From Paenibacillaceae bacterium (GTDB lineage: Bacteria; Bacillota; Bacilli; Paenibacillales; NBRC-103111), in NCBI GenBank assembly GCA_029256065.1, contig JAQSYT010000002.1, positions 1 through 53,549 of the forward strand: DNA of 53,549 bases, in the 5' to 3' direction. The translations under genes were made by a program, and so were the position numbers. The notes below the pieces were generated by a model. That model was not told where the DNA came from and did not search any database. It was given only the letters and a program-made list of their open reading frames with translations. This document shows, in pieces, positions 7,324 through 46,826 of this stretch (positions within the stretch are counted from its first letter, which is position 1; every line of letters starts with the position of its first letter).

Positions 7324-7366
7324 AACATTCAGCTCCTTATCCGTGGCGAATCCGTTTGTTATCTTT

Positions 7367-7559: not shown

Positions 7560-7565
7560 GCATAT

Positions 7566-8922: not shown

Positions 8923-8941
8923 CATGTTGGAGGCATTCCAT

Positions 8942-10261: not shown

Positions 10262-10262
10262 C

Positions 10263-11135: not shown

Positions 11136-11180
11136 TTGGGCCTCAGCAGCATCCCATTTTCGAAAAAAGGAGGCTTTCCC

Positions 11181-11996: not shown

Positions 11997-12008
11997 GAGG
12001 TGGGCGGC

Positions 12009-13964: not shown

Positions 13965-13969
13965 AATTC

Positions 13970-15238: not shown

Positions 15239-15248
15239 GGGCGGGCAC

Positions 15249-15443: not shown

Positions 15444-15482
15444 ATGAGCCTACAAGCAAATATCAAAGAAGGAGGAACCCGC

Positions 15483-15944: not shown

Positions 15945-15958
15945 ATGGCAATATGAAA

Positions 15959-15989
15959 GGCACAAGCTTTCGGAGCTTGTGTCTTTTTT
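15959..15989 (+). terminator. Rho-independent terminator closing the sulfonate operon
   Basis: GGCACAAGCT (15959-15968) pairs with AGCTTGTGTC (15974-15983) across a TTCGG loop and is followed by six T. It lies 14 bases after the split-barrel gene. Confidence 0.85.
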
Positions 15990-16101
15990 CATGCCCGGAA
16001 TACCCTCTCAAGATTTGTCCCATGAGTTTCGGCACGCCGGATATATTTGTCCACCCCCCCACATATACATGCTGTAGACGCTTGTCAACGGGGTGAATGT
16101 A

Positions 16102-28520: not shown

Positions 28521-28562
28521 AAAGCACCTTCCTGCTCTCATAGTCGGATTGCTCTTAACTTC

Positions 28563-31500
28563 TTACAGCTTGCCTACGGGTACCTTCTGATTCAACCGGG
28601 CTGCGATTGCCGCAGCTTGGGCGCGGGTAAGCGCTCCGTCCGGAAGCAGAGCTTGATCCTGGCCGTTAATAATTCCCTCACGGATACAGAGAGCAACAGC
28701 TTCTCTTGCCCATTCCGGAATGGACGTCCCGTCCTCAAACGCACCCAGAATCGTATTGACGTCCGCTTCATTCACTGCCGTATTTCCTCCAAGCAGCGTG
28801 AGCGCCCGGCCTGCCATAACCATAGCCTCCAACCGGGTGAGTTCACCTCCGGGACGGAAGGTACCGTCCTCGAAGCCGTCCACCAGACCGTTAGCGGAAG
28901 CGATGGCAACACTGCGGCTGAACCAGTCATCCGCGGATACATCGGTGAAGCCTGATGTGGCTTGCTGGCTCATCAGACCAAGCACACGGAGCAGCACAGT
29001 GGGATATTCCGCACGGGTAATGCGGCTGTCGGGAGCGAATTCATCCGCTCCGCGGCCCAGCATGAACAGCTTACCGCTGGCTTCTGCAATCACATCCTTG
29101 GCCCAGCTGTCTGCAGCCACATCGGCAAAGGAAGGGTTGTTCTTGATGAAGGCAATGCTGCCATCATCGGTCAAGGTCACATTCACATACGCTTTGTTGT
29201 TGTCGATATCCAGTTTCCATGGAACAGTGGTCCAATCGCCGTTTTTGCTTCTCAGCACCACGCCTGTGATATCCTTGGCAGCAATGCTGTCGGGAATCGC
29301 CACTCTTGCAGCAATGGAACGTCCGGCATAAATTCCGGATTGGTTAATTTCAAAGGTGACGCCTTCTCCGTCTCCCAGCAGTTCAGCCTGGAGAGAAGCG
29401 GCGACCTTTTCCAGCTCTGCTTTTTCGGAAGCGGTGTTTTTCTCCAGCACAAGCTTCAGATCCTTGCCGGACTCAGCTGCAAGATTAGCCGGAATGGCCA
29501 GATCCGCGAAGGGCAGTGCCAAACGGAGGGTTTGTCCGTTCTTGGCTGCTTGGGCCAGCAGGCTGGAGCCGATTTCAAACTCGTAGCCGTTTACCAGCGT
29601 GTTATTGCCTTCGATCAGCAGCTGCTTCGGATTGGCGGCGCTGGTTCCCGCTTTGTCAATCCGGGCCGCCAAGCGGTCATTGCGCATCTCGGTTTGAACG
29701 GTGTCACCGTTGGCTTTAATGTCCGAGTTACCTGGAGCACCGCCGCCTCCACCGCCAGGGAAGCCTCCTGACTGACTCCATACACTTGCAGGCATCAGCG
29801 TGGAAACAGCCAACGCTTGTTTGCCCCCTACTGCCCGTTTGGCTACCCCGATTTTGTCACCGGCCACTGCGGATACAACACCGTCCGCCGGGAGGAGCGC
29901 CCATCCGCTTACATCATCCTTGTACCGGGGGGCTGCGAGAGCTGCGCTTGCCGCCGGATACACCTTATACACCAGCTCCGCATCCGCCATCTCTCCGGCA
30001 GATACCACATTCACCTTGGTAACGCCGGCCTTGTTGGCGACAGCAGCGGTATAAGCCTTGACCTCGCTGGTCACATCCACCACGGTCATCCCCTGGAGAA
30101 CAACATCATCGGTAAGCTGGTAATCGGCCTTCACAATAGCTGCACCCTCGGATACCGCCTTGACCGTGCCGCTACCTGATACACTGGCCGCTTCACCGGT
30201 GTAAAGGGAGTAAGTCAGTTTATCCAAATCTGCCGCAGGTACGGCTACTTCCTTAAACTTGAGCTTTTTGGCCTCATCAAGGCCATCCGGGTACCGCAGG
30301 AACGCTTCTGCCTTCTTTTCATCCTGTACGTACAAATTGGGCAGCTTCCGCAGCACCAGCGCCACAGGCACCTGGTAACCGCCGTTGGTCACCTCCACGG
30401 TTGTGCCGTTGCTGTTGCCAGCCCGGTCTACTGCTTCAAACACCAGATCAAGCTTCGGCTCACTTCCGGAAACGGTAATGTCACCTGCGAACCGGCCGTC
30501 CTGGCCTACCGTCACACGCTGCCCGTTTACCCTGAGCTCCGCATCGTTGCTGGTTTGCCCTTCTACCCGTATTTTCCCGCCGGCAGTACGGTCGCCGGTA
30601 AGCGGAGTGTCAAGATAGAGTACCGGAGCAATGGTATCCACTGTCAGATACAGCATCGTAATGGAGAAATCGCCGGTCTGTTTGTTGGTGGACCGCAATT
30701 CCACCGCATACGTTCCGTCTGTTGTAAAGCTGGAAAAGTCCAATGCTCCTGAGCTGCCGGAGCCATTGTCAGCCAGTTGGGTTTTGCCAACGGACCGGCC
30801 GTCATACAAAGCCTCCACCTCTGTATTTTGCTGGTCGGAGGTGAGGAGAATCCTCTGCTGTGTGGCGCTGGTCAGCACATCCGCGTAAGCATTGGTTGCC
30901 TCCGCTACCTTCACACTATCCGAGGTTTTAATGCCGAGAACCGGTTTTGCAGGAACAGGCAGCAAGGTGTTTGCCGTATCCGTCCGGTTGGAATAATGCA
31001 GATTTTCATTCTTGTCGGATGCTTTATCGGGTTTTACTGCTGCCAATACGCCAACCACATATTTTTGTCCAACCTGCAGCCCCTGGTAGGAGACGGGTTC
31101 CCCTTCAATAGGCTTGCTGACCAGGGTGGATTGATCCACTGCGCTGGAACGGGAAACCCGGGTCCAGCCGCCCAGGCGGATGCCTTCATACTTGCCGCTT
31201 TGGGCATTCCAGTAGGGGGCCAGCTCTTCTTCCGTAAACAGGAGGGAAGCGAAGCTGCCATATTCCGTCAGCGTTCCGTTTTGCTCCTGCATCACCTCGA
31301 TGCTGTAGCTGTGCCCGAAGCCGGCTTGGGCCGGTTTCTTGGCTGCAGGACGGAAGGAGAGATCGAAATATCCGTTGCCTGCAGGTTTTACCGAAACATC
31401 CTGCACCTCTCCGGGTGCCAGCGGATCGATTACGGTGAACTTGTCCGCGCTGGTCTTCGTGCCGAAGGTGTTGGAGGATTTCAGCTCCGCCCGCAAATAA

Positions 31501-34500
31501 TAGTCGCCTTGGGGCAGCAAACCACGGATATCCTCAGTAGCGCCCAAAAGCGAAACCTGGGACACATCAATCACCGTGCTGCCTGTTGCTGTTGTGCCGG
31601 ACATATTGCCTCCGGCGGTAACCTCCAGATCCTTGGCTACCAGAAGTCCTGCCGAGCCTGGAGCTGCTGCTTCTTCTCCTGCGGCGGCAGGAGGCAGAAC
31701 GGCATCCTTGGTCAAATAGAGGCTTACCGTATCTCCCGGCTTGGCATTGGCTACCTTCCAGGAAGCCGTAAATGTGTTCGGGTTTTGGTCCGGCTTCGTC
31801 AAACGGACTTCGTCCAGCTTGGAGACGATCGGAATATTCAGAAGTCTGGAATCCACTTGCTGGTCGGCGTACAGCTTCCATGTTCCGCCGGCTTGATTTG
31901 CCGGTACGGCAATGTAGACCTTTTTCACAAGACCGTTCTGTCCATTAATTTCCTGGGTAAAAGCATTGGCATCCGGATCATTCGTTCTGTTCACATCATA
32001 GAACAACGGATAGTCCTGACCGTTGTTATCCTTCATAACCAGATTCGGCACGTTATTTCCGGAATACTCCACCTCCAACAGTGCATCCCCGGAAACGGAG
32101 CTCATGGGAATCTCATGCAACCGTCCTTCATCCGAAACCTTGATGCCGCCGATGCCCACTCCAAAGGAGCCGTTATCCAGCAGGTCCACACCATTAGCTA
32201 CACTGTGGTATTCAATTTCATGAAGCGTGTCTTCCTTGGTCACCCAAGAGGTAGCCAATGTTTCCACGCCTTGACCCAATACAATCAGCTTGGGACCTGT
32301 CTCCGGATCCTGAATCCGCAAATACGCCAGACCTTCCGGCAGCGTTTCGCCGGAGGTGCCGAATTCAATGCCTCCGTTAAAGTAGTAGGTCACACCCAAG
32401 GTAATGAAAAGAAGGGTGTAGCTGCCCCACATCTTATCATTGTTGATCCCCAAGGAAACACCGGCCAGGGGCATGCCGCCCACAACCGGGACATCTGAAG
32501 GAATTTGCAGCTTGGCGCTGAGGAAACCCTCGAAATCGATCCGGTTCTTAATCAAATTCTGGCCCACAAACAATGAGGCCTTACCAATAATGACATCCCA
32601 GCCCAGCACGTCCACTTCCACAGATGCACTGACGAACCAAGGCGTTGCCCATTGGGCGGCAATTTTTGCCTCCGTGATCATAGTCAGCCGCTCGGAATTG
32701 GGGCTCGGCGAATAATCCAGAGCTCCTACAATCCGGATGCCTGTTTTCTTCAGGGTCAAATCAATGCTGCCATAGAAGGTGGCAGGAGGTATGCCGAAGG
32801 AAATATCCGCTCCCGCTTCAATGGTCAGCGGCACATTTCCTTCCCCGGCAATGGTATCCGCCAGCTCGCGGATAGCGCCGCGGATGCCTTGCAGGTAGGT
32901 GGCGCCGGCAATCATGACGCCGGGGTCGCCCAGCTCCGCCTCGAAGCCAATGACATCCGGCAGAATCCGCTTGTCCGGCACCTGCTTGAAGGCAAGCTCC
33001 ACTCCCACGCCGAAGCTGGCCAGCTCCGCTTTGAACTTAATGCCGTAGGTATTGGAGACATCCTCCACTTCCTGCACATAGTGGACAATGGTAATTTCAC
33101 CGGAGGGCAGCTCCGGGTCATCCTCGCCTTTTTTGCTTGAGCTAATTAAACCGATGCCCTCATTCAGATCAAACTTCAGATTGGCGTCAATCCCCACAAA
33201 ACCCTTATCATTGAAAACAACGTTGTTGATTTCCGATTCAACGATCTTAAGGTTGATGCTGCCGCCAAAAGAGATTCCGCCCGGACGGAGAATAAATTCG
33301 CTGAATTTCATCCCGAAGCCGCTGATGGAGAAGCTGGGAGCGGCAAACAGGCTGTGCCGGTTGAAATATACGTCCTCAATGACCAACTGGCGCAAGGGAT
33401 TTAACCGGTCGGATAAACCGCCGGTTGCCCATTCCAAGGAACCGTTCAGAGAGTCGTCCTCTCCGCCTTCTTGCTTTTTATCCTTGTCCTGATCCCCGTC
33501 CTCCGGCTCCTCTTCCTCCTCATCGTCATCATCCTCATCATCCGATTGCGATAATGATTTGCTGAAGCCATTATAGAAATCCAGTGTCCATTCACCGCTA
33601 TGAAAGATGAAACCGCTGCTGGCTACGGAGAGGGTACCGTCACCCTTCACCGCCAGGGTGCGGAAAAAGGGAGAATCGGCCGCTCCCGAAATCGTGCTTA
33701 GACCCAGCACATCCAGCTGCCCTTGGGCAAATACCATATCCTTGCCGCGGTAGGCTACGGCATTGTTGATGATGGCCGGTTCACTGGTGGTGTCCACCAC
33801 GTACTGCGCATCCTCGCCGCTGCCGATGCGGTTAATCATCCCGCGGATTTCAACCAGAACCTCGTCTCCGCTTTCCTCCTCCTCGTCGCTGCCGACTCCC
33901 GGTTCCTCTCCGGCAAGCTCTTCCTTGAAGGCCTCCAGCTCCTCCTCGCTTTCGAAGGCCTCCAGACGGTAGGCGGGAATTTCCTCCGGCTTCTCCAGAT
34001 ACTCTCCGCTGAATTCCGGGTCAAGGGCTTTGCCGGCCAATACCATCTTGCTCATGGCGCTGGCAAAGGTATTTTTCATCGCTTCCAGATCCACCTTGGA
34101 TGGCAGTTCCTCTCCCGGGAACGCCTCCTCGTAAGATTCCTTCATGTCCTTATAGTCTTCTGTCAGATCAAAGGTTGATTTGACTACTGCCAGGATATTT
34201 GCTTTTTTCACACGGGCTGACTCATTCTCAGTGACTGCAAAGCGTTGGGTTGTGATCAAATCATACAGTCCTGCCGTATCGGCCGTGTCCTTATAGTCCA
34301 CCTCTACCTGATATTCGCCCAAAGGCAGTGTGGGGCCAAGATCCTTCAGCTCCTTGCCGCTGCTATCCTTCATCACCTCACCCTTGGCATCCACAAGATC
34401 GCCTGTGCGGTAAGTAATCCGCATGTCACCCAGCATGCCGTCATTGGCAGGTTGAAGAATAACAGAATCACTCACCGGTACCTTGTAACGGTTGCCTGTT

Positions 34501-36155
34501 GCAATTTCTTTCAAATACAGGTCAAAGTTAGGCGGCGATGTGGCATTGCCTGGGTTATATGCCTCCACATTGGACAAATTCAATGTGATATATTTGACAT
34601 CCGTCGAGTAGGCCTCCTCCGGAGACATGGCATACACAAAGGTTTGTGCAGCAACCCCTACCGGAGGCAAGAAGACAAAGTTGGCCTTGCTGGATTTGTA
34701 CTGGGCCTTAATCGACTCATCCGTTACTCCGTCCAGCTTCTTTTCCGTTTCCGGGCTGCTTACAGACAGCATATATTCCGGAGTTGTCGGCCAGGGGCGG
34801 CCCTTGGCCATCACCTTGAAGGAGGCTGTCACCGTTTCACCCGGCTTGAAGGGGGGCTGGATTCCCAACTCGGCCTCCGCCGGCGTTGCTTCCTTGTAGA
34901 AAATGGCGTTCTGGCTGCTGCCTGCCAGAGTCTTGATTTTTCCGTCAGCGCCTCTGACTACCTGCCCCCTGTCATCCAGCTCCACGAACTTCAGCGCATT
35001 GTCCAACTGCAGACTGACATGGATGCTGGATTGCTCCATTTTAAAGTCGGCCAGATTTTCAATCTCTGCGGTAATATCGAAAACTCCCTCATTCTCATAG
35101 CCGCTGCTGTCGTCGAGAGTAGCCAATTGGTTCACAGGATCAATATAGCGGATGGAGAAAACCTTATCGGGCTGGATAATTTCACCCAAACCATAGACGG
35201 TTTCGAAGCTGCGGGCAGACCCGGCCGGCACCCGGTCGGGATTCCAATACAGCGCTACGGCAGAATCCGCCGAGCCATAGTCATTGGTGTCCGTGGTGAA
35301 ATCCAGATTGGGATTGATTTCATAATCCCACTTGGTGTTGGCCATTTTAGCCCAGTGGCCAACCACCATTTCATCCACAATGTTGATGTCATTCTCCGAA
35401 AAGTTGTTAAAGCCGTATGCCATGACATTGGTGGCCAACGGATTGGAGCTGTCGTATTTGTCCTTCATGACCCAATAGCCGGGTAGGGTATGCAGCGGCT
35501 TCTCCTCTTCGGAAATCGTGGAGGGCAGCTTGTCCGCATCCATCAACCTGCGCTCTACCTGCAGCGGCACCTTATACGCAGTACCTACCTGAAAGGCGGG
35601 GCCGTCATTGCTGCCCAGCATGGTATCCAAGAGAATCCGGGAGCCTACCTGCACATCCGCTTGAGTCGGGTTGTTGACGATGTAGCCGACATTCACGTTG
35701 CCGGCATTCATCTTGTCGGAGGTGTTGATATAGAGCTTCAGAATCTGCGTGATTTGAATCCCCTTGATGCTCCAGGTGGTCTCGATTTGCTTGGTGCCGT
35801 CCGAATTTTCCACAACCCGCGGAGTGGAAATCTCCGAGAAGAAGTCCGCTCCGAATTTATAGGGGTTGCCAAAAATATAGTCTGTTCCGTCAATCCGGAA
35901 AGTGGTAAAGGAGGTTTCAGGATCATCTCCCTGAAACATCATATTCACGTTCTGGTCATTCTTGCGGACGGGTTGGCCGTCCACCGTCCGGACCGCAAAG
36001 CGGCCCGTATGGTTATTGACCGTCACCTTGACGAAGCTGTTGCTTAACACCGTTACGTCTTCCTTGCCTATTTCATTGGCAAAGGCCGAGACCGGAAGCC
36101 CAAATGCCAGCATGGCAACAAGTAAAATGGCGATTGCCTGTTTAAATCCTCTCAT
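28563..36155 (-). CDS. Giant multidomain surface protein with three C-terminal SLH domains
   Basis: A 2530-residue secreted protein. The signal peptide (residues 1-27, AFA-N) precedes a large beta-rich N-terminal region I cannot assign, with an acidic helical segment near 690-780. An Asp/Glu tract lies at about 870-895 and may bind calcium. Residues about 930-1280 are amphipathic beta repeats (for example IKFKAELASFGVGVELAF), then fibronectin/Ig-like modules up to about 1950 (one with DTIAPVLYLDTPLTGD). A Gly-rich linker (about 2130), a stalk and three SLH domains (about 2345-2525, with ITRAE, LTRLE and LTRAQ) anchor it to the wall. The start ATG 36155 has AAGGAG ten bases upstream. It follows the 1789-residue gene by 32 bases and shares the anchor plan of the next gene. 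Confidence 0.82.
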   Translation of the reverse strand: MRGFKQAIAILLVAMLAFGLPVSAFANEIGKEDVTVLSNSFVKVTVNNHTGRFAVRTVDGQPVRKNDQNVNMMFQGDDPETSFTTFRIDGTDYIFGNPYKFGADFFSEISTPRVVENSDGTKQIETTWSIKGIQITQILKLYINTSDKMNAGNVNVGYIVNNPTQADVQVGSRILLDTMLGSNDGPAFQVGTAYKVPLQVERRLMDADKLPSTISEEEKPLHTLPGYWVMKDKYDSSNPLATNVMAYGFNNFSENDINIVDEMVVGHWAKMANTKWDYEINPNLDFTTDTNDYGSADSAVALYWNPDRVPAGSARSFETVYGLGEIIQPDKVFSIRYIDPVNQLATLDDSSGYENEGVFDITAEIENLADFKMEQSSIHVSLQLDNALKFVELDDRGQVVRGADGKIKTLAGSSQNAIFYKEATPAEAELGIQPPFKPGETVTASFKVMAKGRPWPTTPEYMLSVSSPETEKKLDGVTDESIKAQYKSSKANFVFLPPVGVAAQTFVYAMSPEEAYSTDVKYITLNLSNVEAYNPGNATSPPNFDLYLKEIATGNRYKVPVSDSVILQPANDGMLGDMRITYRTGDLVDAKGEVMKDSSGKELKDLGPTLPLGEYQVEVDYKDTADTAGLYDLITTQRFAVTENESARVKKANILAVVKSTFDLTEDYKDMKESYEEAFPGEELPSKVDLEAMKNTFASAMSKMVLAGKALDPEFSGEYLEKPEEIPAYRLEAFESEEELEAFKEELAGEEPGVGSDEEEESGDEVLVEIRGMINRIGSGEDAQYVVDTTSEPAIINNAVAYRGKDMVFAQGQLDVLGLSTISGAADSPFFRTLAVKGDGTLSVASSGFIFHSGEWTLDFYNGFSKSLSQSDDEDDDDEEEEEPEDGDQDKDKKQEGGEDDSLNGSLEWATGGLSDRLNPLRQLVIEDVYFNRHSLFAAPSFSISGFGMKFSEFILRPGGISFGGSINLKIVESEINNVVFNDKGFVGIDANLKFDLNEGIGLISSSKKGEDDPELPSGEITIVHYVQEVEDVSNTYGIKFKAELASFGVGVELAFKQVPDKRILPDVIGFEAELGDPGVMIAGATYLQGIRGAIRELADTIAGEGNVPLTIEAGADISFGIPPATFYGSIDLTLKKTGIRIVGALDYSPSPNSERLTMITEAKIAAQWATPWFVSASVEVDVLGWDVIIGKASLFVGQNLIKNRIDFEGFLSAKLQIPSDVPVVGGMPLAGVSLGINNDKMWGSYTLLFITLGVTYYFNGGIEFGTSGETLPEGLAYLRIQDPETGPKLIVLGQGVETLATSWVTKEDTLHEIEYHSVANGVDLLDNGSFGVGIGGIKVSDEGRLHEIPMSSVSGDALLEVEYSGNNVPNLVMKDNNGQDYPLFYDVNRTNDPDANAFTQEINGQNGLVKKVYIAVPANQAGGTWKLYADQQVDSRLLNIPIVSKLDEVRLTKPDQNPNTFTASWKVANAKPGDTVSLYLTKDAVLPPAAAGEEAAAPGSAGLLVAKDLEVTAGGNMSGTTATGSTVIDVSQVSLLGATEDIRGLLPQGDYYLRAELKSSNTFGTKTSADKFTVIDPLAPGEVQDVSVKPAGNGYFDLSFRPAAKKPAQAGFGHSYSIEVMQEQNGTLTEYGSFASLLFTEEELAPYWNAQSGKYEGIRLGGWTRVSRSSAVDQSTLVSKPIEGEPVSYQGLQVGQKYVVGVLAAVKPDKASDKNENLHYSNRTDTANTLLPVPAKPVLGIKTSDSVKVAEATNAYADVLTSATQQRILLTSDQQNTEVEALYDGRSVGKTQLADNGSGSSGALDFSSFTTDGTYAVELRSTNKQTGDFSITMLYLTVDTIAPVLYLDTPLTGDRTAGGKIRVEGQTSNDAELRVNGQRVTVGQDGRFAGDITVSGSEPKLDLVFEAVDRAGNSNGTTVEVTNGGYQVPVALVLRKLPNLYVQDEKKAEAFLRYPDGLDEAKKLKFKEVAVPAADLDKLTYSLYTGEAASVSGSGTVKAVSEGAAIVKADYQLTDDVVLQGMTVVDVTSEVKAYTAAVANKAGVTKVNVVSAGEMADAELVYKVYPAASAALAAPRYKDDVSGWALLPADGVVSAVAGDKIGVAKRAVGGKQALAVSTLMPASVWSQSGGFPGGGGGGAPGNSDIKANGDTVQTEMRNDRLAARIDKAGTSAANPKQLLIEGNNTLVNGYEFEIGSSLLAQAAKNGQTLRLALPFADLAIPANLAAESGKDLKLVLEKNTASEKAELEKVAASLQAELLGDGEGVTFEINQSGIYAGRSIAARVAIPDSIAAKDITGVVLRSKNGDWTTVPWKLDIDNNKAYVNVTLTDDGSIAFIKNNPSFADVAADSWAKDVIAEASGKLFMLGRGADEFAPDSRITRAEYPTVLLRVLGLMSQQATSGFTDVSADDWFSRSVAIASANGLVDGFEDGTFRPGGELTRLEAMVMAGRALTLLGGNTAVNEADVNTILGAFEDGTSIPEWAREAVALCIREGIINGQDQALLPDGALTRAQAAAIAARLNQKVPVGKL

Positions 36156-36187: not shown

Positions 36188-39100
36188 TTAATCCGTATTG
36201 CCCACAAAGAAGGAAGCGAACTCCCTTTCTCTCTCTTGCGTTCTGACAATAATGGTGTACCAGCCTGCTTTGGGGAAGGTAACCTGGAATTGCTGTGCGG
36301 TCAGTGCTTCGTAGGATATTTCCTCGGCAATATATTTCATTTGCCCTTCCCGGTACAGTCCGGAATGATACAGAATTGTAAAGGTAGCCCGTTCATTGGT
36401 TGCCTTTGCTCCTCCGACCATCATTTCGTCATAACCCTGTACGCGGAAGGTGATTTTGTTGGTATCGAACAAAATGGATTCCTCTGCATTAGCGGACAAG
36501 ATTTCCCCGTTACCGGTAATAAGCAGCCCGGTATCCGGCATAACCACAACCGATTGGCTGATGCTTGTGCTATTGCCAACCTCATCCGTCACAGTGTAGG
36601 TAACGGTTTGCTTGCCTGTTTTGGTCAGGTCCAGATCACTGATGGACACGGTCAGGTTATCCGCAGCAGACAGATTGTCGGAAACTGTATACCCGCCCAA
36701 ATCGGTGTAAGGGTTAAAGCCAACCTGGTTCCGGATAAGGGAGGCAACAGGACGGTTCAGTACGAGTTCAGGCGCCGTATTATCCAAACCCGATACTTCA
36801 ATTTGGGAAAGCACTGTATGTCCCAGAAGATCGGTGATTGCAATTCTTGTGCGCCCGTTGGTGCTGTAAACGGCTGAGTGGCTGTAGCTGCCATCCGGGC
36901 CGCTTAACTGGTTTACGTAGCTTCCATCTTGCAAGGACGGTGCAGTTCCCAGGAAGATCTTATTAGGAGAGCCGACCTGTCCGCTCAAGGTTACCTTCAC
37001 CTTGCCTTTGGCATAGGTTTTGCCGCCGATGGTCACGATTTTTTCCGGAGGGAGCAGCGTCCCGTTCTCATCCACGTATTCGTAGACAATTTGCGGTGCG
37101 GTGAACGCCGGAGCGATATAAGCAATCTCCTGTTCCAGAACCGTGGTATTGCCCATTTGGTCCCGGACGGCAAATTCCACCTTGCCGTTCTCCAGCATCG
37201 TAACCGGGCTTTGGCCCTGAACGATTGTAAAGTCCTTGGCGCTGTCAGCGGTTTTGGCTGCGCTCAGCACAACACCCTCAGCCAAAACCACATTGCCTTG
37301 GTTGTCTGTGATGGTCTTAAAGGTTTTTGATCCGTTGGTACCGTACGTATATGCCGCCACAATTTTAACGGAGGGGGGCGTTTTGTCGATGTTGCCGACT
37401 GTCGCCGCCAGCGTGTTTTTGTTGCCTGCTTCATCCTCGAATTCAAAGGTGAAGGTGTCGTTCTCCGTAAATATATGGCGTCTGCTGCCGTCATTGTTCA
37501 ACACCCGCACCGGCTCCGAGGTTTGCAGCTCAGCTGTCACATTGGAGGAAGTTGGCCCGGTAATGTTGTAAACAATCACTCCTTCAGGAGGAGTATCGTC
37601 AATATTCTTCACGACTGCCACGAGCTTAGCATTGCGGTCAGGTGCGGTCAGATCGGTCATGTCAAAGGTGTATACGCCGTTCTGCGGGATATTGTAGGTA
37701 TTGCCCTTGGCATGTACCGGAGCTGCAGGATTTTCCGTAGTGGAAGGCTTCACCTTCACACCTGCCGGAACCGATATGGTCAATGCTACGGCACCGCTGC
37801 CTACCGACTTCAAGGTGCTGTAGGAGACAATACCGTACAGCGGATCTGCCTCAGGGTTGAATCCCTTGGTATCCACATCGGCCGGACTGCTTTCGCCTCC
37901 ATAGGGAGAGCGGAATTTCACCTTCAGCTTCAGTTGGGACGGTGTTTTTTCATCAACAGAAATACGGACAAAATTGGTATATGGCATCCAAGTGGTCCAT
38001 GTGGCGCCGTTATCCTTGGATACGGCATATTCATAGCCGTCCTTGGTTGAATTTTGCAGCTCCAGCTGGAGCACAGCCTTGTATCCGTCGGTATCGTTGC
38101 CCTCGAAGGCGATGAGATCAGATTGGAGCACCTGCACCGGACGGTCATCCTCGCGGGACAGCAGGAATGTTCCCGTGTGGGTAACGGCAGTGTTGCCGGC
38201 CCCGTCTGCAGCCAGGACATACAAGATGAAGTTGGCGGTTTCTCCAACGACCAGTCCGGAGTTATCCAGCACAGCCTTATGATCCTCAGGGAGAGTTTGC
38301 CAGCCTGCCGTTCCCTCACCTGGCGCTGGAATTTCCTCCCGGAGCCACAGGTACTTCACCGTCATGCCATCCTGCCGGTACGGCTCGGTTGCCGTTACAA
38401 CGACAGTGTGGCTTGGTTTCGCGTAGTTAACGCCGTTGATGTTGAATGTAACAGCAGGCGCAGTATTATCGAGCTTGTACAATTGGTTGAAGTAATAGTT
38501 TTGTCCATCCAATTCTTTGACCCGAATATGCAGATATTGCTCTCCGTTCAGCGTGGTGTCTGCCGGAATCCGAACCACAGCATCATAAACCGCCGAGGTA
38601 ACGGTGTTAGCCCCATAAACGGAGTTAGTGACGGAAGGCTCCACAGTGATGCCGGTGTCCACTGTCAAATCACCGGCTGTTGGGTTATTCCCGTATACGG
38701 CAGCACTGACTGTGGGCTTAAATTGGCCGTCCGCCGGGCGCACCACGGTATTGCTGAACGTATAGGCAATCTCCTCCACTTGGATGCTGTTCTCGATTCC
38801 TTTAAAGGAGAATTCCACATCCCGGCTCTTCATGTAGGTATCCGATGTTGAAGAAAAGGAAATCTCCATTTTCTTGGAGGAATTCACTTTGGCAACATCC
38901 TTCATTTGTGCAGCGGTTGTATTTCCGGCATAGTCCGCAGCCTGCAGATACAAAACATAGCTGCCGTCTTCAAAAACATGGTTTTGGGTGGAGACAATAT
39001 GGTCTGCAGGAACGACACTCCACGCTATTCCACTTGGCGCTTCATTTTCCTTCACCCATTGGTATTGCAGCTTGGCGGGGTCGATACCGCTATGCTTATC

Positions 39101-41557
39101 AGTTGCTGTTATCTTTGCTTCAACCTGGGCAGTGTCCTGGCCGCTGCCAAGCTCTGCGTAGAGTTCAGGGGCTTTATTATCCAGCAGCAGAGTGGCTTTG
39201 TTGTAAATCCAGTTGGAGTCATCGAATTTGAAATCATCTGGCGTCCACATGGCCAGATTTTCATATTCCCCTACTGCCACCAGTGCTTTGCCGGAAGCAT
39301 AGATTTCCGCATCCGCATCGGAAGCACCGGGATGACCCGCCAGATACTCATTCTTCCAAGCGGCATATTGGGCCGCGTTATCGGTTTCGAATACCTTCTT
39401 CTTCTTGTATTGCATCAGTTCCCGGGCCGTATCCCATGTCATATCTGCTGTCCAGGTATGCAGGTACCAGGGGCCGCTTGCTTCAGAGGCGAGGGCCTCT
39501 GCCGGAGGAGAAAGAAGGTTGGTTTTGTTATTGGCGACCATAAATTTCAAACCCGTTAAATCCGGATACAGACCATTGCTTGGCTGCAGTCCTGTCAGTG
39601 AATACCGCTTTACTGCGGCATAATGATCGGCTTCTTTACCTTTGAGCGGGTTCTCCGCATTATTGCTCCAGTAGTAAAAAACCAACCCCACTCCTGGAGA
39701 GTTGCTTCCGGTACCGCCGGTCATATTCAGCGGACGGTAGATGCCACGGCTTGGCCGTACGAAACCAGCCTCATCCGGATCAAGAGGGGGAGCCGTCACC
39801 GATGGGTCATTGGCGTCAATGGTGATTTTCCCTTTTTTGCCGTAGACCGCATCGGTTGCACCATCGCTGTCATAGTTGTAGCTGAATTCCGGATCCTGAT
39901 TATCAATGGACAGCTTTGCCCAGTCGATCTTGGTTTCAGCGATCCGCTGGGAGGGATCTGTGGGAACAGGCTCTGACGATTTGCTGGTGTTGGCCGCATC
40001 CATCAGCAGATTGCCGGCATAATCCTGGATCACACCTTTGTCGGCGTAGCCCGGTGCACGGCTTTCATGGGTGAGGGCAATCACCTTCAGCAGCGCCACG
40101 TCCACATCGGCATCTGTTACCTTAGCCTCGAACATCCAGACGTCCTCGTTCATGCCGCTTACATATTTGGCTTTCATGCCATTATTGAAATAAAGAAATA
40201 AATCATCTGAGTCCAAGCTGTCTTTAATAATGACCTTCTCCGTAAGCTGTACCTTGAAATCAATCACATCTCCGCCATTCAAGGTACTCCCCGTGACGAT
40301 TTCAGGCTGAATGCCGTTGGCCACAAAAGAATATTTGGGCGGAACGGCGTCGACAATTACACGATAGCCGTCATTACCATTGATCGTCTCATCCGGATCG
40401 ACATGTTCATCAAATGGATTTATCGCCTTGCCGCTTAAAAAGGAGGAACCGGCAGCAGAAGCCTTCTTGCCGAAATTGCTGACAATTAGCGGATTGCCGG
40501 CAGGATCATGAAAATCGGCGGCAATAATTTTTTCCTTAAGCGAGTAATCGTTCAGTCCACCGCTTGAAGGAAGCGACATCAGTTCTCCGCCGTTCTTGAT
40601 CGGCAGATTGCCTGAATGATGGAGGGGCGTGGGAGAGTAGGAATAAGCCAGCCTGTCTGTAAACTGGCTCCAATTGGTTGAAGCCGGCAGCTTCATCGCC
40701 TGGTTTTGCCCGGCTCCTGGCAAGCCCGTTCCGGCCGGGTTGGTAAATAGATAATGGACGTTGAGGTCAGCGGCATCCCCCGGCGAGCTCGGTTTGACCA
40801 GCTCGCTGAAGGGATAGTCAAGCTTCAGATTTTCATCGGCTTTTATAAACAGTTCTTTCTCACCAATGGTGGTGTTGTCACGTTCTGTACCGGTGGAGGT
40901 AAATTGATAGTCCTCCATCTTCGGCGGAGTGATATCCCGGAAATACAGATGTAGCCCGTCAAAAGCGGCGGTTCCATCCCGGACCAATGTAATGGTGATC
41001 ACATCATTGGGGTCAAGTGTCTGCCAGCCCGTATCAACATTATCATTGCGGTCGGGATTGCTCCCCCCATTCTCCTCCCTATACTTGTAGTAGCCTGACC
41101 TGTTCGTTTCGACCTCCATACTGATGAAGTCGTCATCAGATTCCCACATCGTGTTGATGAAGAAGCGAAATTGCCCTTGACCACTGGCGGCAAGCGCCTG
41201 CAAACCGGGTATATCGGCCACATGAATAGAACCCTTGAAATCACTTGCATGTTCTGTACCCCCAGAGAGGCTATCTCCTCCATACGCAATATTAACCCCT
41301 GGAAACCCAGCGCCTCTGCTCTGCTGGTAGAACCACATCCAAGCGTCATACTCTCCTACGTCACTTTCACCCGATATCGCGGGAACCGCGGGGTTCTTGC
41401 TAATCGTACTGGCATTATAAATCTTTCTCTGATTAATAAACACATCCTCATACTGTCCTGCCGCCTTCACTTCCGTGGTTCCTGCAGGCATAAACATTGC
41501 CGGCAGCAGGCTGGCAGCAAGGATGACCGACGTCCACTTTTTTAACCTTTTCAGCAT
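36188..41557 (-). CDS. Very large secreted Ig-like multidomain protein without SLH anchor
   Basis: A 1789-residue exported protein. A signal peptide (about 1-33, ending VKAA) follows a basic start MLKRLKKW. The mature part is a string of beta-sandwich modules: repeated DNTAPEL/DNTAPAV openings, TDKHSGIDPAKL, AADYAGNTT and AADGAGNTA closings mark Ig-like surface modules, and a bacterial Ig-like repeat near 1590-1690 ends VTYTVTDEVGNSTS. It has no SLH domain, LPXTG motif or C-terminal hydrophobic segment, so it is either released or held by its SLH-bearing neighbours. ATG 41557 is chosen for the GGGAGG eight bases upstream; the 17-codon extension lacks a ribosome site and would run into the protease gene. 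Function unknown; extracellular binding is the best guess. Confidence 0.8.
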   Translation of the reverse strand: MLKRLKKWTSVILAASLLPAMFMPAGTTEVKAAGQYEDVFINQRKIYNASTISKNPAVPAISGESDVGEYDAWMWFYQQSRGAGFPGVNIAYGGDSLSGGTEHASDFKGSIHVADIPGLQALAASGQGQFRFFINTMWESDDDFISMEVETNRSGYYKYREENGGSNPDRNDNVDTGWQTLDPNDVITITLVRDGTAAFDGLHLYFRDITPPKMEDYQFTSTGTERDNTTIGEKELFIKADENLKLDYPFSELVKPSSPGDAADLNVHYLFTNPAGTGLPGAGQNQAMKLPASTNWSQFTDRLAYSYSPTPLHHSGNLPIKNGGELMSLPSSGGLNDYSLKEKIIAADFHDPAGNPLIVSNFGKKASAAGSSFLSGKAINPFDEHVDPDETINGNDGYRVIVDAVPPKYSFVANGIQPEIVTGSTLNGGDVIDFKVQLTEKVIIKDSLDSDDLFLYFNNGMKAKYVSGMNEDVWMFEAKVTDADVDVALLKVIALTHESRAPGYADKGVIQDYAGNLLMDAANTSKSSEPVPTDPSQRIAETKIDWAKLSIDNQDPEFSYNYDSDGATDAVYGKKGKITIDANDPSVTAPPLDPDEAGFVRPSRGIYRPLNMTGGTGSNSPGVGLVFYYWSNNAENPLKGKEADHYAAVKRYSLTGLQPSNGLYPDLTGLKFMVANNKTNLLSPPAEALASEASGPWYLHTWTADMTWDTARELMQYKKKKVFETDNAAQYAAWKNEYLAGHPGASDADAEIYASGKALVAVGEYENLAMWTPDDFKFDDSNWIYNKATLLLDNKAPELYAELGSGQDTAQVEAKITATDKHSGIDPAKLQYQWVKENEAPSGIAWSVVPADHIVSTQNHVFEDGSYVLYLQAADYAGNTTAAQMKDVAKVNSSKKMEISFSSTSDTYMKSRDVEFSFKGIENSIQVEEIAYTFSNTVVRPADGQFKPTVSAAVYGNNPTAGDLTVDTGITVEPSVTNSVYGANTVTSAVYDAVVRIPADTTLNGEQYLHIRVKELDGQNYYFNQLYKLDNTAPAVTFNINGVNYAKPSHTVVVTATEPYRQDGMTVKYLWLREEIPAPGEGTAGWQTLPEDHKAVLDNSGLVVGETANFILYVLAADGAGNTAVTHTGTFLLSREDDRPVQVLQSDLIAFEGNDTDGYKAVLQLELQNSTKDGYEYAVSKDNGATWTTWMPYTNFVRISVDEKTPSQLKLKVKFRSPYGGESSPADVDTKGFNPEADPLYGIVSYSTLKSVGSGAVALTISVPAGVKVKPSTTENPAAPVHAKGNTYNIPQNGVYTFDMTDLTAPDRNAKLVAVVKNIDDTPPEGVIVYNITGPTSSNVTAELQTSEPVRVLNNDGSRRHIFTENDTFTFEFEDEAGNKNTLAATVGNIDKTPPSVKIVAAYTYGTNGSKTFKTITDNQGNVVLAEGVVLSAAKTADSAKDFTIVQGQSPVTMLENGKVEFAVRDQMGNTTVLEQEIAYIAPAFTAPQIVYEYVDENGTLLPPEKIVTIGGKTYAKGKVKVTLSGQVGSPNKIFLGTAPSLQDGSYVNQLSGPDGSYSHSAVYSTNGRTRIAITDLLGHTVLSQIEVSGLDNTAPELVLNRPVASLIRNQVGFNPYTDLGGYTVSDNLSAADNLTVSISDLDLTKTGKQTVTYTVTDEVGNSTSISQSVVVMPDTGLLITGNGEILSANAEESILFDTNKITFRVQGYDEMMVGGAKATNERATFTILYHSGLYREGQMKYIAEEISYEALTAQQFQVTFPKAGWYTIIVRTQEREREFASFFVGNTD

Positions 41558-41597: not shown

Positions 41598-42272
41598 TCA
41601 CTTCGCAACTGCCGCCGCTTCCTCAGCGCTGACAGCCAAATGAATGCCGCTCATGGTCCGCAGCGAGCCGGACAGAATGCCTGCCGCATAGCCGTGCTCA
41701 TCCAATAACGGGCCGCCGGACATGCCGTTGACCAGCTCTGCCGAAACCAGCACCCGGTCCCTACCGTTGATGGAAGCACGGGCCGCATTCACAATGCCTT
41801 CTGTGATGATCTTCGTTCCCTTCATCGGAAACCCGATGGCAAAAACCCTCTCGCCATGCTTCACCTGACCCGTGCGCAACGGGATGAACGGATATGTACG
41901 TTGTATTCCTGCGTTGTCCGCCGGCTGCTCCAGCTTCAGAACGGCCGTATCAGCCGCTTCGTTCCTGGCAATCACCCGCCCTGTCACTGTTGACAGGTCA
42001 TTCAGCACGCATTCAACCTGCTCTGTCTCTACTACTACATGGTACGCAGTCAGTGCCGTGCCGTCCGGACGGATCACAAACCCGGTGCCCACATCCTTCA
42101 GCGTTCCATCCTCCCGGAGCACCCTTACATAAAAAATTGCCTCCTCTGCATGAGAATAAAGCTCCTCCGCATTATAACGGGGAGGGGAATCCGCCTCAGA
42201 AACGGAAAACCCGTTTACGGTCAGCAACAGGGCCATTAGTATTGCAAACATCAGTCCGCCCCTTCGCCACAC
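41598..42272 (-). CDS. Exported trypsin-like serine protease, HtrA-type core without PDZ
   Basis: A 224-residue protease with an N-terminal hydrophobic segment (about 7-27), signal or anchor, and a single chymotrypsin-fold domain. The triad is His78 (LTAYHVV), Asp108 (AADTAVLKL) and Ser185 (GMSGGPL). HtrA/DegP proteins have the same motifs but carry a PDZ domain, which is absent here because the protein ends soon after the last strand. The start is taken as GTG 42272, which gives a good signal sequence; ATG 42251 is an alternative. It is first in the operon, 40 bases before the 1789-residue secreted protein, so it may mature or turn over the giant surface proteins on the outer membrane face. 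Confidence 0.82.
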   Translation of the reverse strand: MWRRGGLMFAILMALLLTVNGFSVSEADSPPRYNAEELYSHAEEAIFYVRVLREDGTLKDVGTGFVIRPDGTALTAYHVVVETEQVECVLNDLSTVTGRVIARNEAADTAVLKLEQPADNAGIQRTYPFIPLRTGQVKHGERVFAIGFPMKGTKIITEGIVNAARASINGRDRVLVSAELVNGMSGGPLLDEHGYAAGILSGSLRTMSGIHLAVSAEEAAAVAK

Positions 42273-42321: not shown

Positions 42322-42357
42322 ATTATAGAGTAGGCTTCTCTCAAAATTCTCTCAAAA
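42322..42357 (-). promoter_or_regulatory. Promoter of the protease/surface operon with tandem 11-base repeats
   Basis: On the minus strand a consensus -10, TATAAT (42322-42327), is preceded after exactly eight bases by two identical, abutting 11-mers TTTTGAGAGAA (42336-42346 and 42347-42357). There is no good -35, as expected for an activator-dependent promoter. Direct repeats at 11-bp spacing next to a -10 are the site architecture of SARP-type regulators, and a SARP response regulator is encoded next door. The same TTKTGAG core recurs at the kinase promoter. Confidence 0.65.
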
Positions 42358-42439
42358 GTCGGATGCCAGCTAAAATGCTAGTTCCTGCGGCTCACCCCGG
42401 TTTTCAGGGATAAATCAAAGAAAATGGCCACTAAATGCC

Positions 42440-42470
42440 AAAAAACCCTGCAGCATTTAAGCTGCAGGGT
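42440..42470 (-). terminator. Terminator of the response-regulator transcript
   Basis: ACCCTGCAGC (42445-42454) and GCTGCAGGGT (42461-42470) form a perfect ten-base-pair stem with a six-base loop; read on the minus strand it is followed by a run of T (AAAAA at 42441-42445 on the plus strand). It separates the two-component genes from the surface operon, which therefore needs its own promoter. The 80 bases between it and that promoter show nothing further. Confidence 0.85.
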
Positions 42471-42490
42471 CCACTTTTTTATTTTCCACT

Positions 42491-43645
42491 TTACTGGCGT
42501 TTATCTATTATTTTCGACAATTCCATATACATCTTAACTTTTCTGCTGATTTCCCCAGGTACTTCCATTCCCATCTCCCTGCGGTACTGGGTTTCGAAGA
42601 GGGAGTAGTGCCGGGTAACCCTCTCCCGTTTACCGGATGCCGCGTACACCTCCATAAGAAGCAGGTTCAGCTCCTCTTCCAGGGGATAATAGGAGAGGCA
42701 GGTGAGCAGCCGCTGCTCCGCCCGGTCCCAGTCGCCTTCCGCAAGATAGCGCTTTGCCAGACTGCAGCCGATGGCCCTGTATTGCTTGCCGCAGCTTTCC
42801 TCCAATTGGACTTTCCACATATAATCCTTGTGCCCCAAGAGCGTCCCGCGGTACAAGGCAAACAGAGATTCCAGCCGCTCCGGCTCCGTCTGCTCCATTT
42901 TCCCCGGTCCCGGCATGCCTTGCAGAAACTCCAGCAGATCATAACCGGTATCCAGAGCCTTCAGCAGATAGCCGTCTCCGGTTTTGACCACATCCATCCC
43001 GATGTCCTGCTCCTTCATGAGCTTTTTCAGCCGGTACACGGTATTGTGCAGATTATGGGTAGCCCGTTCCTCGCTCATCTCCGGCCACAAGAGATCCACC
43101 AGCTTCCACTTGGAGATGTCCTGATTGGGCCAACACAGCAGGTAGGCGTACAGCTCTTCCGTTTTCTTGGTGGGCCAGCGGACCAATTCATTCTGGGGGC
43201 TGCGCACCTCGAAGCTGCCGAGGCAGCGGATGAAGGCCTTGGGCACAGACTCAGCAGGCGGCGCAGCCTCAGTTCCCGCACGGCCTGCCTCCTTCAGCAA
43301 GCGGGTGGTAATCCGGTCGATGGCGCTGGTCATCACCGGCTTCAATATATAATCGAAGGCGAAAACCCGGAATGCCTCCAGAGCGTATTCCTTGTATGCA
43401 GTGGTAAACACAATACGGGTGCCCTCGCAGCACTCATTCAGCCTCTGGGCCAGCTCAAGGCCGGACAGCTTGGGCATTTCCACGTCCAGGAACGCAATGT
43501 CCGGCTGAAGCTCAGGCAGTTTTTCCAGTGCCTCCAGCGGATTGTTGAAGGCACCGATAATCCGGCAGTGGGGATTGCGGCCCACAACTACCTTCATCAG
43601 CTCCAGAATGGGCTTTTCATCCTCCACGATGACAACGCTGAACAT
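42491..43645 (-). CDS. Response regulator with SARP-type (winged helix plus BTAD) output
   Basis: A 384-residue regulator. The receiver domain (about 1-120) has the acidic pair in VEDE, phospho-acceptor Asp54 (FLDVEMP), the Thr in FTTAY and Lys in LKP. An OmpR-like winged helix (about 145-225, KTEELYAYLLCWPNQDIS...NTVYRLKK) and a helical bacterial transcriptional activation domain (about 235-375) follow, the SARP layout. ATG 43645 sits just after AGGGGGAGAGGGG and begins exactly at the receiver fold. An ATG at 43675 overlaps the kinase stop (ATGA) and would add ten residues, so coupled translation is an alternative. It is the obvious partner of the hybrid kinase and a candidate regulator of the surface operon. 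Confidence 0.85.
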   Translation of the reverse strand: MFSVVIVEDEKPILELMKVVVGRNPHCRIIGAFNNPLEALEKLPELQPDIAFLDVEMPKLSGLELAQRLNECCEGTRIVFTTAYKEYALEAFRVFAFDYILKPVMTSAIDRITTRLLKEAGRAGTEAAPPAESVPKAFIRCLGSFEVRSPQNELVRWPTKKTEELYAYLLCWPNQDISKWKLVDLLWPEMSEERATHNLHNTVYRLKKLMKEQDIGMDVVKTGDGYLLKALDTGYDLLEFLQGMPGPGKMEQTEPERLESLFALYRGTLLGHKDYMWKVQLEESCGKQYRAIGCSLAKRYLAEGDWDRAEQRLLTCLSYYPLEEELNLLLMEVYAASGKRERVTRHYSLFETQYRREMGMEVPGEISRKVKMYMELSKIIDKRQ

Positions 43646-43671
43646 TCCCCTCTCCCCCTTTCCCAAGCTGT

Positions 43672-46600
43672 TCATATTTCCTCATCCCGCGGCAGCCGCA
43701 GCTCAATTCTGGTCCCGCGGCCCGGCTCCGAGGCTACCTGCAAGGCGGCCCCCGGAATGGACTCCAAACGGCGCCGGATGTTGAGTATGCCGATTCCGAT
43801 ACCGTCTCCGGGCTTGCCGGGACCGGCAATTCTGGTCAAAACGTCCTCCGGTATGCCGGTTCCGTCATCCTCGATCGTTACCCGCACCCCTTCCGCCACC
43901 TTGTCTACGGTGAGAATAACGGTGCCCCGGCCGTCCTGGTCGAAGAAGCCATGCCGGATGGCATTTTCCACAAACGGCTGAATGCAGAGGGAGGGAACGG
44001 GAAACTCCTCGAGCCCTTTTTCCACATGGCTGACAAACTCAAACCGGTCGTCGAAACGGGCACGTTCAATTTCCACATACGCTTCGATCAGCTCCAGCTC
44101 ACGGCATAACGGCACCAGCAGCTCATGCCTGTCCATATCCAGAATGTAGCGGAGATATTGGCTGAGCCGCGAAAGCAGATACGCCGCCTTTTCCCCGTCG
44201 GTGTAACAGAAGGAGATGACGCTGCTTAGAGCATTATACAGGAAATGAGGCTTAATCTGCGCCTGGTGGAAGGCCAGCTCATTGCGGACCGCCTCCTGGA
44301 AGGCTGACTTCATAGCCAGCAGCGTCTGAATCCGGGCCAGCATGGTTTCCCCTTCGAAGGGTTTGGTAACATAGTCGTTGGCGCCTGCGGCAAAGCCCAA
44401 GGCCACATCCTGGGAACGGTCCTTGGCCGTAGCGAACAGAATGGGCAGTGACAATATGGAATGCTGCTCCCTAAGCATCCGGCAAAGCTCGATGCCGGAC
44501 ACATCGGGCATCATCACGTCCAGGATAATCAGGTCAATATTCGGATGCCGGGCGATTTGGGCTAAGGCTTCCTTAGCAGACAAGGCAGACAGCAAATTGT
44601 AAGGATGGCGGCGCAGAATGTTCAGCAGGGTGTAAATATTGGAAGGCTCGTCATCCACGATCAGAATAGTTTGCTTATGCTCGCCTACAATGTCCAGAGG
44701 CTCCAGGATTTGAAGAGAGTGGCGCCGGGGGGATTCCGCGCCTCCGCCATCCTCCACAGAAACGGCAGCCTCTTCCAGCGGCAGGCTGATTTTCATCCGT
44801 GTGCCCCGGCCGGGCTCAGACCATTCAATGTCCATGGAGCCGTTCATACCCTCCGCCAGCTTGCGGCAGATATACAGCCCAACACCCATTCCGGTGTACC
44901 CCTCAGCCGGAGAATCATAGCCGAAGGGGTCTTCTTTGTTCAATAACCGCTGCTGTTTTTCTGGTGTTATGCCTGCCCCTGTATCCTCAACGGTAATCAG
45001 GGCCGCACTTCCGGCAACTGTGCTGTTCAAGGTAATACTTCCCGCTTCTGTATGCTTGATGGCGTTATGCACCAGATTATACAGCACCTGGCGGAGACGG
45101 TTTTCGTCCGCATGCACCCAAAGGGCAGCGGGAATTTCGTTTAGCAACGCTACGTTTTTGCCCGCCAGCTCGAACTGCAGAATATCCAGCACAAGCTTGG
45201 CCACGGACCGGACGTTAACGGAGGTAATCTGCATGTTCATCTCGCCATGGCGCAGCCGGGTAACATCAATCAGGTCCTGCATCAGCATAGTCAGCTTGAC
45301 GGAGGTGTCCTTCACCAGCCGCAGGTCCTGCTGCTGCTTGGCGGAGAGCGCGCCCTCCCCATCGTCCATAAGATGGGAGGTAATATTCATAATGGCGTTC
45401 AGCGGCGTCCGGATTTCATGAGAGGTCATGATGAGGAATTCGTCCTTGGCCTGGTTGGAGGCGGTCAATTGGCGGGTCAGACTTTTCGTTTCCTCCATGG
45501 TCCGCGCAAAGCGGAATGCCAGCAGTATGTTCATCAGGATGGTGAACAGCACCGCCCCCATCTTGCCGATGAAGTCAGACGACATCATACTTTCCTTGGC
45601 CAAGGAATCCGCCACCAGATAAACCAGCAGACATACCACAGCGGCAATAAACAAAAGCAGCTCCTTGCTTTCATAGCTGCCTTTTTGCCGCCGGGAGTAC
45701 AGACGGACCATTCCCAAAACCATGCTAAACTCTACAATTGCCAGATAGAACATCACATACAGCTTGAAATCATTGAAAACATGGTAAGGAATAAACGGTA
45801 TCACGCCAACACATAAAACCAGCGGGAGGATAAGAATAATCTGCGCCCGCTTGGACATCATCCGGCTATTTAGGGAGCTGAACAGCAGCACGGCTACCAG
45901 GGCAGAGAGAATGATCGTGATATCCAGCGCCTTATAGATGACATCAAACGGAATCTGGGGAAGGAGCCGCTGGGCAATTTTCTCGTCCTGCATGGTCTGC
46001 CCGATGGCAATCAGCACCAGGAACAGCCCGCAATACAAATAGCTGCGGTCCTCGCGCCTGGGCAAATACTGAAGGAGCTGGTGGATGCCCACCAGGGTAA
46101 AGATCAGCACACACGCCAGATCCCCTCCCAAGCTTAACGCCGTCTGGATCATCACGTCCCTTTGTGCGCCAAGCTGAATGGGTCTGGCAATTCCCCCATT
46201 AAAAAATACATGGTTGGACACTTGAATGACAATTTCGATTTCATCGTTATCCGACTGAAAAAACACCGTATACGGTGTATTGCCGGGGCTGTGTTCCTCC
46301 CGCGTATAAGCGGGGGTTCCGCTTCCCCCCTCAAGATGACCGTTAATGTACAGCTTGTGGGCCATGCGGATGTTCGTAATTTTGATTCCGTATATAGCTT
46401 CATCGGCAGGCACCAGCACCTTCAACCGGTATGTGCCTGAGCCCTTTGCATGGACGCCGCCGTTCTCATGCTTGCCCCGCCAGGTCCAGGGAGTCTCCAG
46501 GTAAATAGCTTCACCCGGCTGTTCAAACACAGGGTCGCCCGGTTCCAGTAGCTTGTCCGGAACAAACTCCCATTCCCCGCTCAGCTGTGCCATCCCCCGC

Positions 46601-46752
46601 TCCGGCAAACCCAGCCCCCGCAGATCCATAACTCCCTTTTGTGCTGGCGGCGCGCTCCCATGCTCAACCAATCCTGTATATAACAACGTTACCAGCAGAA
46701 TAAGCGCTGCCGTAAGCGAAGTGATCCCAATCCATTTCCCTGCCGCTTTCAT
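43672..46752 (-). CDS. Hybrid sensor kinase with 7TMR-DISM input and two kinase modules
   Basis: A 1026-residue membrane kinase. After an N-terminal membrane segment (about 8-28) an extracellular galactose-binding-like DISMED2 domain (about 45-195) and seven transmembrane helices (about 205-420) form the 7TMR-DISM sensor. Then come HisKA with His445 (SHEIRTPLN) and a HATPase (N/G boxes, DTGAGI, GMGVGLYI), a receiver with Asp745 (LDVMMPD), and a second, LytS-type kinase with His836 (QIKPHFLYNALSS) and its own HATPase (FVENAIRHG, GTGIPEDV). Signals can therefore pass through an internal phosphorelay before reaching the SARP regulator, whose gene overlaps or abuts the stop codon. A sugar-like or cell-surface ligand is suggested by the DISMED2 domain. 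ATG 46752 is 36 bases downstream of a TATAAT box. Confidence 0.85.
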   Translation of the reverse strand: MKAAGKWIGITSLTAALILLVTLLYTGLVEHGSAPPAQKGVMDLRGLGLPERGMAQLSGEWEFVPDKLLEPGDPVFEQPGEAIYLETPWTWRGKHENGGVHAKGSGTYRLKVLVPADEAIYGIKITNIRMAHKLYINGHLEGGSGTPAYTREEHSPGNTPYTVFFQSDNDEIEIVIQVSNHVFFNGGIARPIQLGAQRDVMIQTALSLGGDLACVLIFTLVGIHQLLQYLPRREDRSYLYCGLFLVLIAIGQTMQDEKIAQRLLPQIPFDVIYKALDITIILSALVAVLLFSSLNSRMMSKRAQIILILPLVLCVGVIPFIPYHVFNDFKLYVMFYLAIVEFSMVLGMVRLYSRRQKGSYESKELLLFIAAVVCLLVYLVADSLAKESMMSSDFIGKMGAVLFTILMNILLAFRFARTMEETKSLTRQLTASNQAKDEFLIMTSHEIRTPLNAIMNITSHLMDDGEGALSAKQQQDLRLVKDTSVKLTMLMQDLIDVTRLRHGEMNMQITSVNVRSVAKLVLDILQFELAGKNVALLNEIPAALWVHADENRLRQVLYNLVHNAIKHTEAGSITLNSTVAGSAALITVEDTGAGITPEKQQRLLNKEDPFGYDSPAEGYTGMGVGLYICRKLAEGMNGSMDIEWSEPGRGTRMKISLPLEEAAVSVEDGGGAESPRRHSLQILEPLDIVGEHKQTILIVDDEPSNIYTLLNILRRHPYNLLSALSAKEALAQIARHPNIDLIILDVMMPDVSGIELCRMLREQHSILSLPILFATAKDRSQDVALGFAAGANDYVTKPFEGETMLARIQTLLAMKSAFQEAVRNELAFHQAQIKPHFLYNALSSVISFCYTDGEKAAYLLSRLSQYLRYILDMDRHELLVPLCRELELIEAYVEIERARFDDRFEFVSHVEKGLEEFPVPSLCIQPFVENAIRHGFFDQDGRGTVILTVDKVAEGVRVTIEDDGTGIPEDVLTRIAGPGKPGDGIGIGILNIRRRLESIPGAALQVASEPGRGTRIELRLPRDEEI

Positions 46753-46787
46753 ACTGCCGCCCCTCTATCAGATAAAAAATACACGCA

Positions 46788-46826
46788 ATTATATCATACG
46801 ATAGCAAGCTCACAAGAAACTCACAA
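46788..46826 (-). promoter_or_regulatory. Promoter of the kinase/regulator operon with 11-bp spaced heptamers
   Basis: Read on the minus strand, TATAAT (46788-46793), overlapped by a second possible -10 TATGAT (46793-46798), lies downstream of two direct copies of TTGTGAG at 46809-46815 and 46820-46826. The copies are spaced 11 bp, and the nearer one also overlaps a -35-like TTGTGA. The heptamer differs by one base from the TTTTGAG pair at the surface-operon promoter, which suggests autoregulation by the same response regulator. A separate palindrome ATGAAC-TTA-GTTCAT lies further up at 46860-46874; nothing else is clear up to 47002. Confidence 0.6.

Follow-up and report, generated by a model that had tools for sequence, protein, structure and literature searches.

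A putative direct-repeat operator shared by a SARP-type response regulator operon and a surface-protein operon in a Paenibacillus-like bacterium

Genes and regulatory features of the locus

The window, the whole stretch of 53,549 nucleotides of a Paenibacillaceae draft genome that was analyzed here, carries on its minus strand a kinase–regulator gene pair, followed by genes for a protease and three large surface proteins (Table 1). The kinase has two kinase cores, one of the HisKA–HATPase type and one with a LytS-type His_kinase and HATPase, with a receiver in between. The start codon of the regulator gene may be the ATG at 43645. Transcription of the surface operon is probably separate from that of the kinase–regulator operon, since the regulator gene is followed by an intrinsic terminator. 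The surface genes span 23 kb and form a putative single transcript, with no convincing minus-strand terminator at the gene junctions inside the operon. An alternative start of the protease gene, the TTG at 42344, falls within the putative operator described below. A gene for a secreted NlpC/P60 peptidase (47246–47731, plus strand) diverges from the kinase promoter. In a sister genome (locus L051, genome G001), an IS605-type transposase gene (6601–7713, plus strand) lies between the protease gene and the gene of the 1800-aa surface protein.

Table 1. Coordinates of genes and regulatory elements in the window
Feature	Position	Strand	Remarks
Hybrid sensor kinase	43672..46752	-	7TMR-DISM, HisKA, HATPase, receiver, LytS-type His_kinase, HATPase
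Kinase–regulator operon operator (putative), TTGTGAG-TTTC-TTGTGAG	46809..46826	-	kept in 27/29 orthologous loci
Kinase -10, TATGAT	46793..46798	-	10 bp past second heptamer
Response regulator	42491..43675	-	receiver, OmpR-type winged helix and BTAD (SARP domain)
Intrinsic terminator, CCCTGCAGC-TTAAAT-GCTGCAGGG-TTTTTT	42438..42471	-	between regulator gene and surface promoter; bidirectional
Surface-operon operator (putative), TTGAGAG-AATT-TTGAGAG	42338..42355	-	core of two abutting 11-mers; conserved in orthologs
Surface -10, TATAAT	42322..42327	-	10 bp past second heptamer, 8 bp past 11-mer
Secreted trypsin/HtrA-like protease	41598..42251	-	first surface-operon gene; ATG start inferred
Secreted Ig-like surface protein	36188..41557	-	about 1790 aa
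Surface protein	28563..36155	-	2530 aa, three SLH domains
Surface protein	18996..28541	-	3181 aa, GLUG repeats and three SLH domains

The regulator joins a receiver to a SARP domain

The earlier note had described the gene between the two promoters as encoding a receiver–SARP regulator, and profile and fold comparisons both reveal a genuine winged helix and BTAD. The receiver occupies residues 14–119 of the 394-aa open reading frame, and its phospho-acceptor D54, together with T82 and K102, is invariant in 27 orthologs. The BTAD is recognized by Pfam with 27.7 bits (cut-off 22.1). In profile comparison, the winged helix and BTAD match AfsR with an E-value of 7e-6, and the best PDB profile match to the same region is EmbR (2fez, E 2e-8), with which the fold also agrees. 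In the structure model (pLDDT 90), residues 133–381 match AfsR from its RNAP–promoter complex with Z scores of 18.1–18.4 over 239–243 residues. The AfsR contact residues W74, R92, R94 and K95 correspond in the profile alignment to W187, R205, K207 and K208 (numbered from the ATG at 43645). W187, K207 and K208 are invariant in the 27 orthologs, and R205 is a leucine in a few of them. Comparison of motifs with recognition helices revealed no clear heptamer change in the orthologs with R205 changed to leucine, and we therefore make no claim of covariation.

SARPs are described mainly from actinomycetes, as activators of antibiotic genes (PMC10936776). Streptomyces AfsR and other SARPs, which act on the afs box or on heptamers of the PimR/DnrI class, likewise consist of an OmpR-type winged helix followed by a BTAD (PMC10936776, PMC5930380). 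EmbR of Mycobacterium tuberculosis shares this pair of domains, but ends in an FHA domain and has no receiver. OmpR/PhoB response regulators such as M. tuberculosis PhoP share the receiver and the winged helix, but lack the BTAD; a repeat kept at strictly 8 bp from the -10 is the pattern of SARPs. The SARP domain is N-terminal in the small and large SARPs described previously, whereas here the receiver precedes it and a hybrid kinase gene lies alongside; we therefore refer to the protein as a SARP-output response regulator, probably SARP-like in its action and distinct from a canonical SARP. Gene adjacency predicts that the neighboring kinase phosphorylates it. Many of the relatives' genomes encode several SARP-type response regulators.

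Both promoters share one repeat geometry

Abutting repeat copies eight bases before a TATAAT at the surface promoter, and two TTGTGAG heptamers at 11-bp spacing before the kinase operon promoter, had been noticed earlier, and both are present exactly as stated. The surface promoter carries two abutting copies of TTTTGAGAGAA (42336–42357, minus strand), 8 bp after which the TATAAT begins, and the kinase promoter carries the pair TTGTGAGTTTCTTGTGAG. The pattern TTKTGAG-N4-TTKTGAG with at most one mismatch has two matches in the window, compared with 0.05 expected from shuffles. A pattern search of the 5.26-Mb draft assembly (79% complete) found exact copies only at these two sites, both within the window.

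The shared core originally proposed, TTKTGAG, was dropped for TTGWGAG once orthologs were compared: at the surface promoter it is two bases out of register, since the conserved unit TTGAGAG lies 2 bp downstream of the earlier TTTTGAG inside each TTTTGAGAGAA. In the ortholog register, the surface promoter reads TTGAGAG-AATT-TTGAGAG-aagcctactc-TATAAT and the kinase promoter TTGTGAG-TTTC-TTGTGAG-cttgctatcg-TATGAT. A TATAAT 5 bp downstream of the TATGAT, at offset 15, was rejected as the kinase -10: it is not conserved, the sister genome having TATATT there and keeping TATGAT at offset 10, the offset that the orthologs use. With this register and this -10, the two geometries are identical (TTGWGAG-N4-TTGWGAG-N10-TATRAT), and the supposed weak point, a heptamer-to--10 distance of 12 at one promoter and 10 or 15 at the other, vanishes as a register error, both distances being 10. 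The comparison defines a 34-bp conserved box, TTGWGAG-N4-TTGWGAG-N10-TANNNT.

This arrangement resembles that of AfsR, whose two 11-bp repeats, bound by a side-by-side dimer, leave 8 bp between the 3' repeat and the -10 (PMC10936776): here, too, two 11-bp direct repeats lie around the -35 position and stop 8 bp short of the -10, as in the Streptomyces SARPs (PMC10936776, PMC5930380). A winged helix followed by a BTAD, and 11-bp repeats with this distance to the -10, are features of SARP-domain regulators. The system differs from the Streptomyces SARPs in its heptamer, TTGWGAG, in its Paenibacillus-like hosts, and in its predicted targets, which are SLH surface proteins and not antibiotic clusters.

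A box in promoter position at a fixed distance from the -10 might also be explained without an activator, with an alternative sigma factor using it as its core promoter. We give this reading next to no credence: the -10 hexamer is of the usual TATAAT-like kind, frequently with a TGn extension, and tandem copies one helical turn apart suit two protein protomers rather than a -35/-10 pair.

The box is conserved at orthologous loci

A search of 149 relatives for the regulator was followed by retrieval of mostly 15–20 kb around 40 matches; the ortholog set comprises 29 loci with a regulator identity of at least 47%, including the window. The earlier note had proposed searching such loci for paired repeats, with their absence from relatives carrying the same genes as grounds for refutation; the repeats are present. 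A box with at most two mismatches lies upstream of the kinase gene in 27 of the 29 loci, in every case with TANNNT at offset 10. At the two exceptions, L052 and L061, the neighboring kinases are non-orthologous (41% and 32% identical). Downstream of the regulator gene, a box with at most one mismatch occurs within 1.5 kb in 18 of the 29 loci; at several of the others, the surface operon and its box sit elsewhere in the genome.

The spacing of the box is fixed across dozens of related bacteria. At the regulator loci, all 49 gene-strand TTGWGAG pairs within 40 bp have a spacing of 11, compared with a single pair, at spacing 30, on the opposite strand. TANNNT follows at offset 10 in 47 of 48 exact pairs, a count restricted to the regulator loci, so that the -10 played no part in selection. 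The spacer between the heptamers (42345–42348 and 46816–46819 in the window) is TTTT, TTTC or ATTT at most kinase promoters and AATT at most promoters of surface genes, unlinked ones among them. Multi-copy kinase–regulator clusters in two genomes (L081 in G107; L084 and L151–L153 in G110) carry two box variants, TTGTGAG pairs and TTGAGAG pairs, which are perhaps paralog-specific sites.

The box co-occurs with the regulator

Across the 149 relatives, the exact 34-bp pattern has about 80 matches, compared with one for the reversed control, and it is found in 36 genomes. These include 33 of the 38 genomes with a strong regulator match (at least 290 bits) and 3 of the 111 others (Fisher p 2.4e-24, with genomes treated as independent and relatedness uncorrected); as scoring in the regulator search was limited to 12 candidates in each genome, orthologs may in some cases be missed. 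Five genomes with the regulator lack an exact box: four of them carry boxes with one or two mismatches, and the fifth, G093, lies outside the fetched loci.

The kinase ortholog is also absent from the three box-bearing genomes without a strong regulator match (G083, G063 and G038). Flanks of G083 align at 92–95% with those of G072 across a deletion of the kinase, the regulator and most of the target, apparently a recent event that took out regulator and target together; this natural deletion (L138, about 4011–4258, compared with L064) left the kinase promoter and its box behind. G063 has lost a target gene and retains its promoter. In G038, the box stands upstream of a different SARP regulator gene; there and in G052 (L147 and L149, about position 2000 with the box turned to the plus strand), this gene encodes a distant SARP response regulator with 25% identity, which suggests a regulatory cascade.

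Among 80 loci taken from named records (1.05 Mb), only those of Paenibacillus wynnii, a Brevibacillus MAG and Cohnella endophytica carry a box with at most one mismatch; no other of these loci has a regulator that reaches 42% identity. Promoters of 20 paralogous kinases (about 31–35% identity) contained no box at up to two mismatches, and a de novo search of them for 11-bp repeats gave only scattered, chance-like matches. No box was found near paralogous SARP regulators in the same genome or the sister genome, and a plasmid search at E 1e-40 returned no regulator homolog.

Taken together, the comparative evidence is very strong that both repeat pairs represent one conserved, shared putative operator. 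This conservation indicates constraint on the site and does not by itself identify the protein that acts there. Seven-bp direct repeats with 4-bp spacers are also used by OmpR/PhoB-family regulators such as PhoP (PMC4832192), and winged-helix response regulators in general can do so; another member of this family could therefore bind the boxes and control both operons. This is most unlikely, as the box tracks the ortholog of the SARP regulator genome by genome (the comparison covered this regulator's ortholog), adjoins its gene and is missing at paralogous systems. Strong, indirect evidence thus points to the adjacent SARP regulator as the probable binding protein.

A predicted regulon of surface proteins

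The 82 distinct box sites, assigned with rough gene starts, precede the kinase (25 sites), the protease operon (11), SLH proteins (19), proteins like that of 1806 aa (2), other apparently secreted proteins (9) and SARP regulators (2); the remaining sites precede mixed genes or none that is clear. In G049, G035 and G076, the operon of the protease, 1806-aa and 2530-aa genes lies on another contig than the regulator and has retained its box. Other unlinked boxes are mostly upstream of secreted SLH proteins, and Pfam confirmed SLH domains in sampled target proteins.

In L132 (G078, site 1940 with the box turned to the plus strand), the gene behind the box encodes a CheY-like receiver, which may point to a connection with chemotaxis or motility. 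In L052 (G106, 6592–17940), where the regulator is 70% identical and the 41% identical kinase lacks a box, an operon that does carry one has genes for a dockerin protein and for a cohesin/SLH protein, possibly components of a surface-anchored complex.

Proposed mechanism and significance

The earlier proposal that shared repeats tie the SARP system to the surface operon is thus supported by ortholog conservation, co-occurrence and the SARP fold. The 7TMR-DISM membrane hybrid kinase would phosphorylate the regulator, which would then bind as a side-by-side dimer near the -35 position, with one protomer on each 11-bp repeat, and recruit RNA polymerase to promoters that have a -10 and no -35. In this way it would activate its own kinase–regulator operon in a positive feedback and, as a separate downstream transcript, the operon of the protease and the giant SLH surface proteins. 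That the phosphorylated regulator binds and activates both promoters is, in our assessment, highly probable, even though boxes before non-surface genes (CheY-like and another SARP regulator) count against it. Phosphorylation presumably controls its activity.

The box overlaps space taken by the polymerase: from a position between -35 and -10 repression is also conceivable, and the spacers that differ by promoter class (TTTT/TTTC at the kinase, AATT at targets) could mean different outcomes or affinities. The same regulator might then repress through these sites, or repress its own operon while activating the surface operon. We consider this improbable, since the base frequencies of the boxes contain no recognizable -35 hexamer at the proper distance, which fits activator-dependent promoters, and since the characterized SARPs with this geometry are activators (PMC10936776). 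By analogy with the SARP family and from the missing -35, we infer activation at both promoters.

A literature search turned up no paper reporting where a SARP-type response regulator of Paenibacillus-like bacteria binds or which genes it controls, and nothing relevant on SARPs together with Paenibacillus, Firmicutes or 7TMR-DISM. It is likely that these bacteria possess a phosphorelay-driven SARP regulon, in which a single pair of 7TMR-DISM kinase and SARP response regulator, itself under positive feedback, governs a set of giant SLH surface proteins through an operator with the strict geometry used by antibiotic regulators of actinomycetes, with the site kept at unlinked targets and regulator and targets at times lost together. 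One SARP-type response regulator of Paenibacillus-like bacteria thereby gains a precise putative operator, a predicted surface-protein regulon and a testable mechanism.
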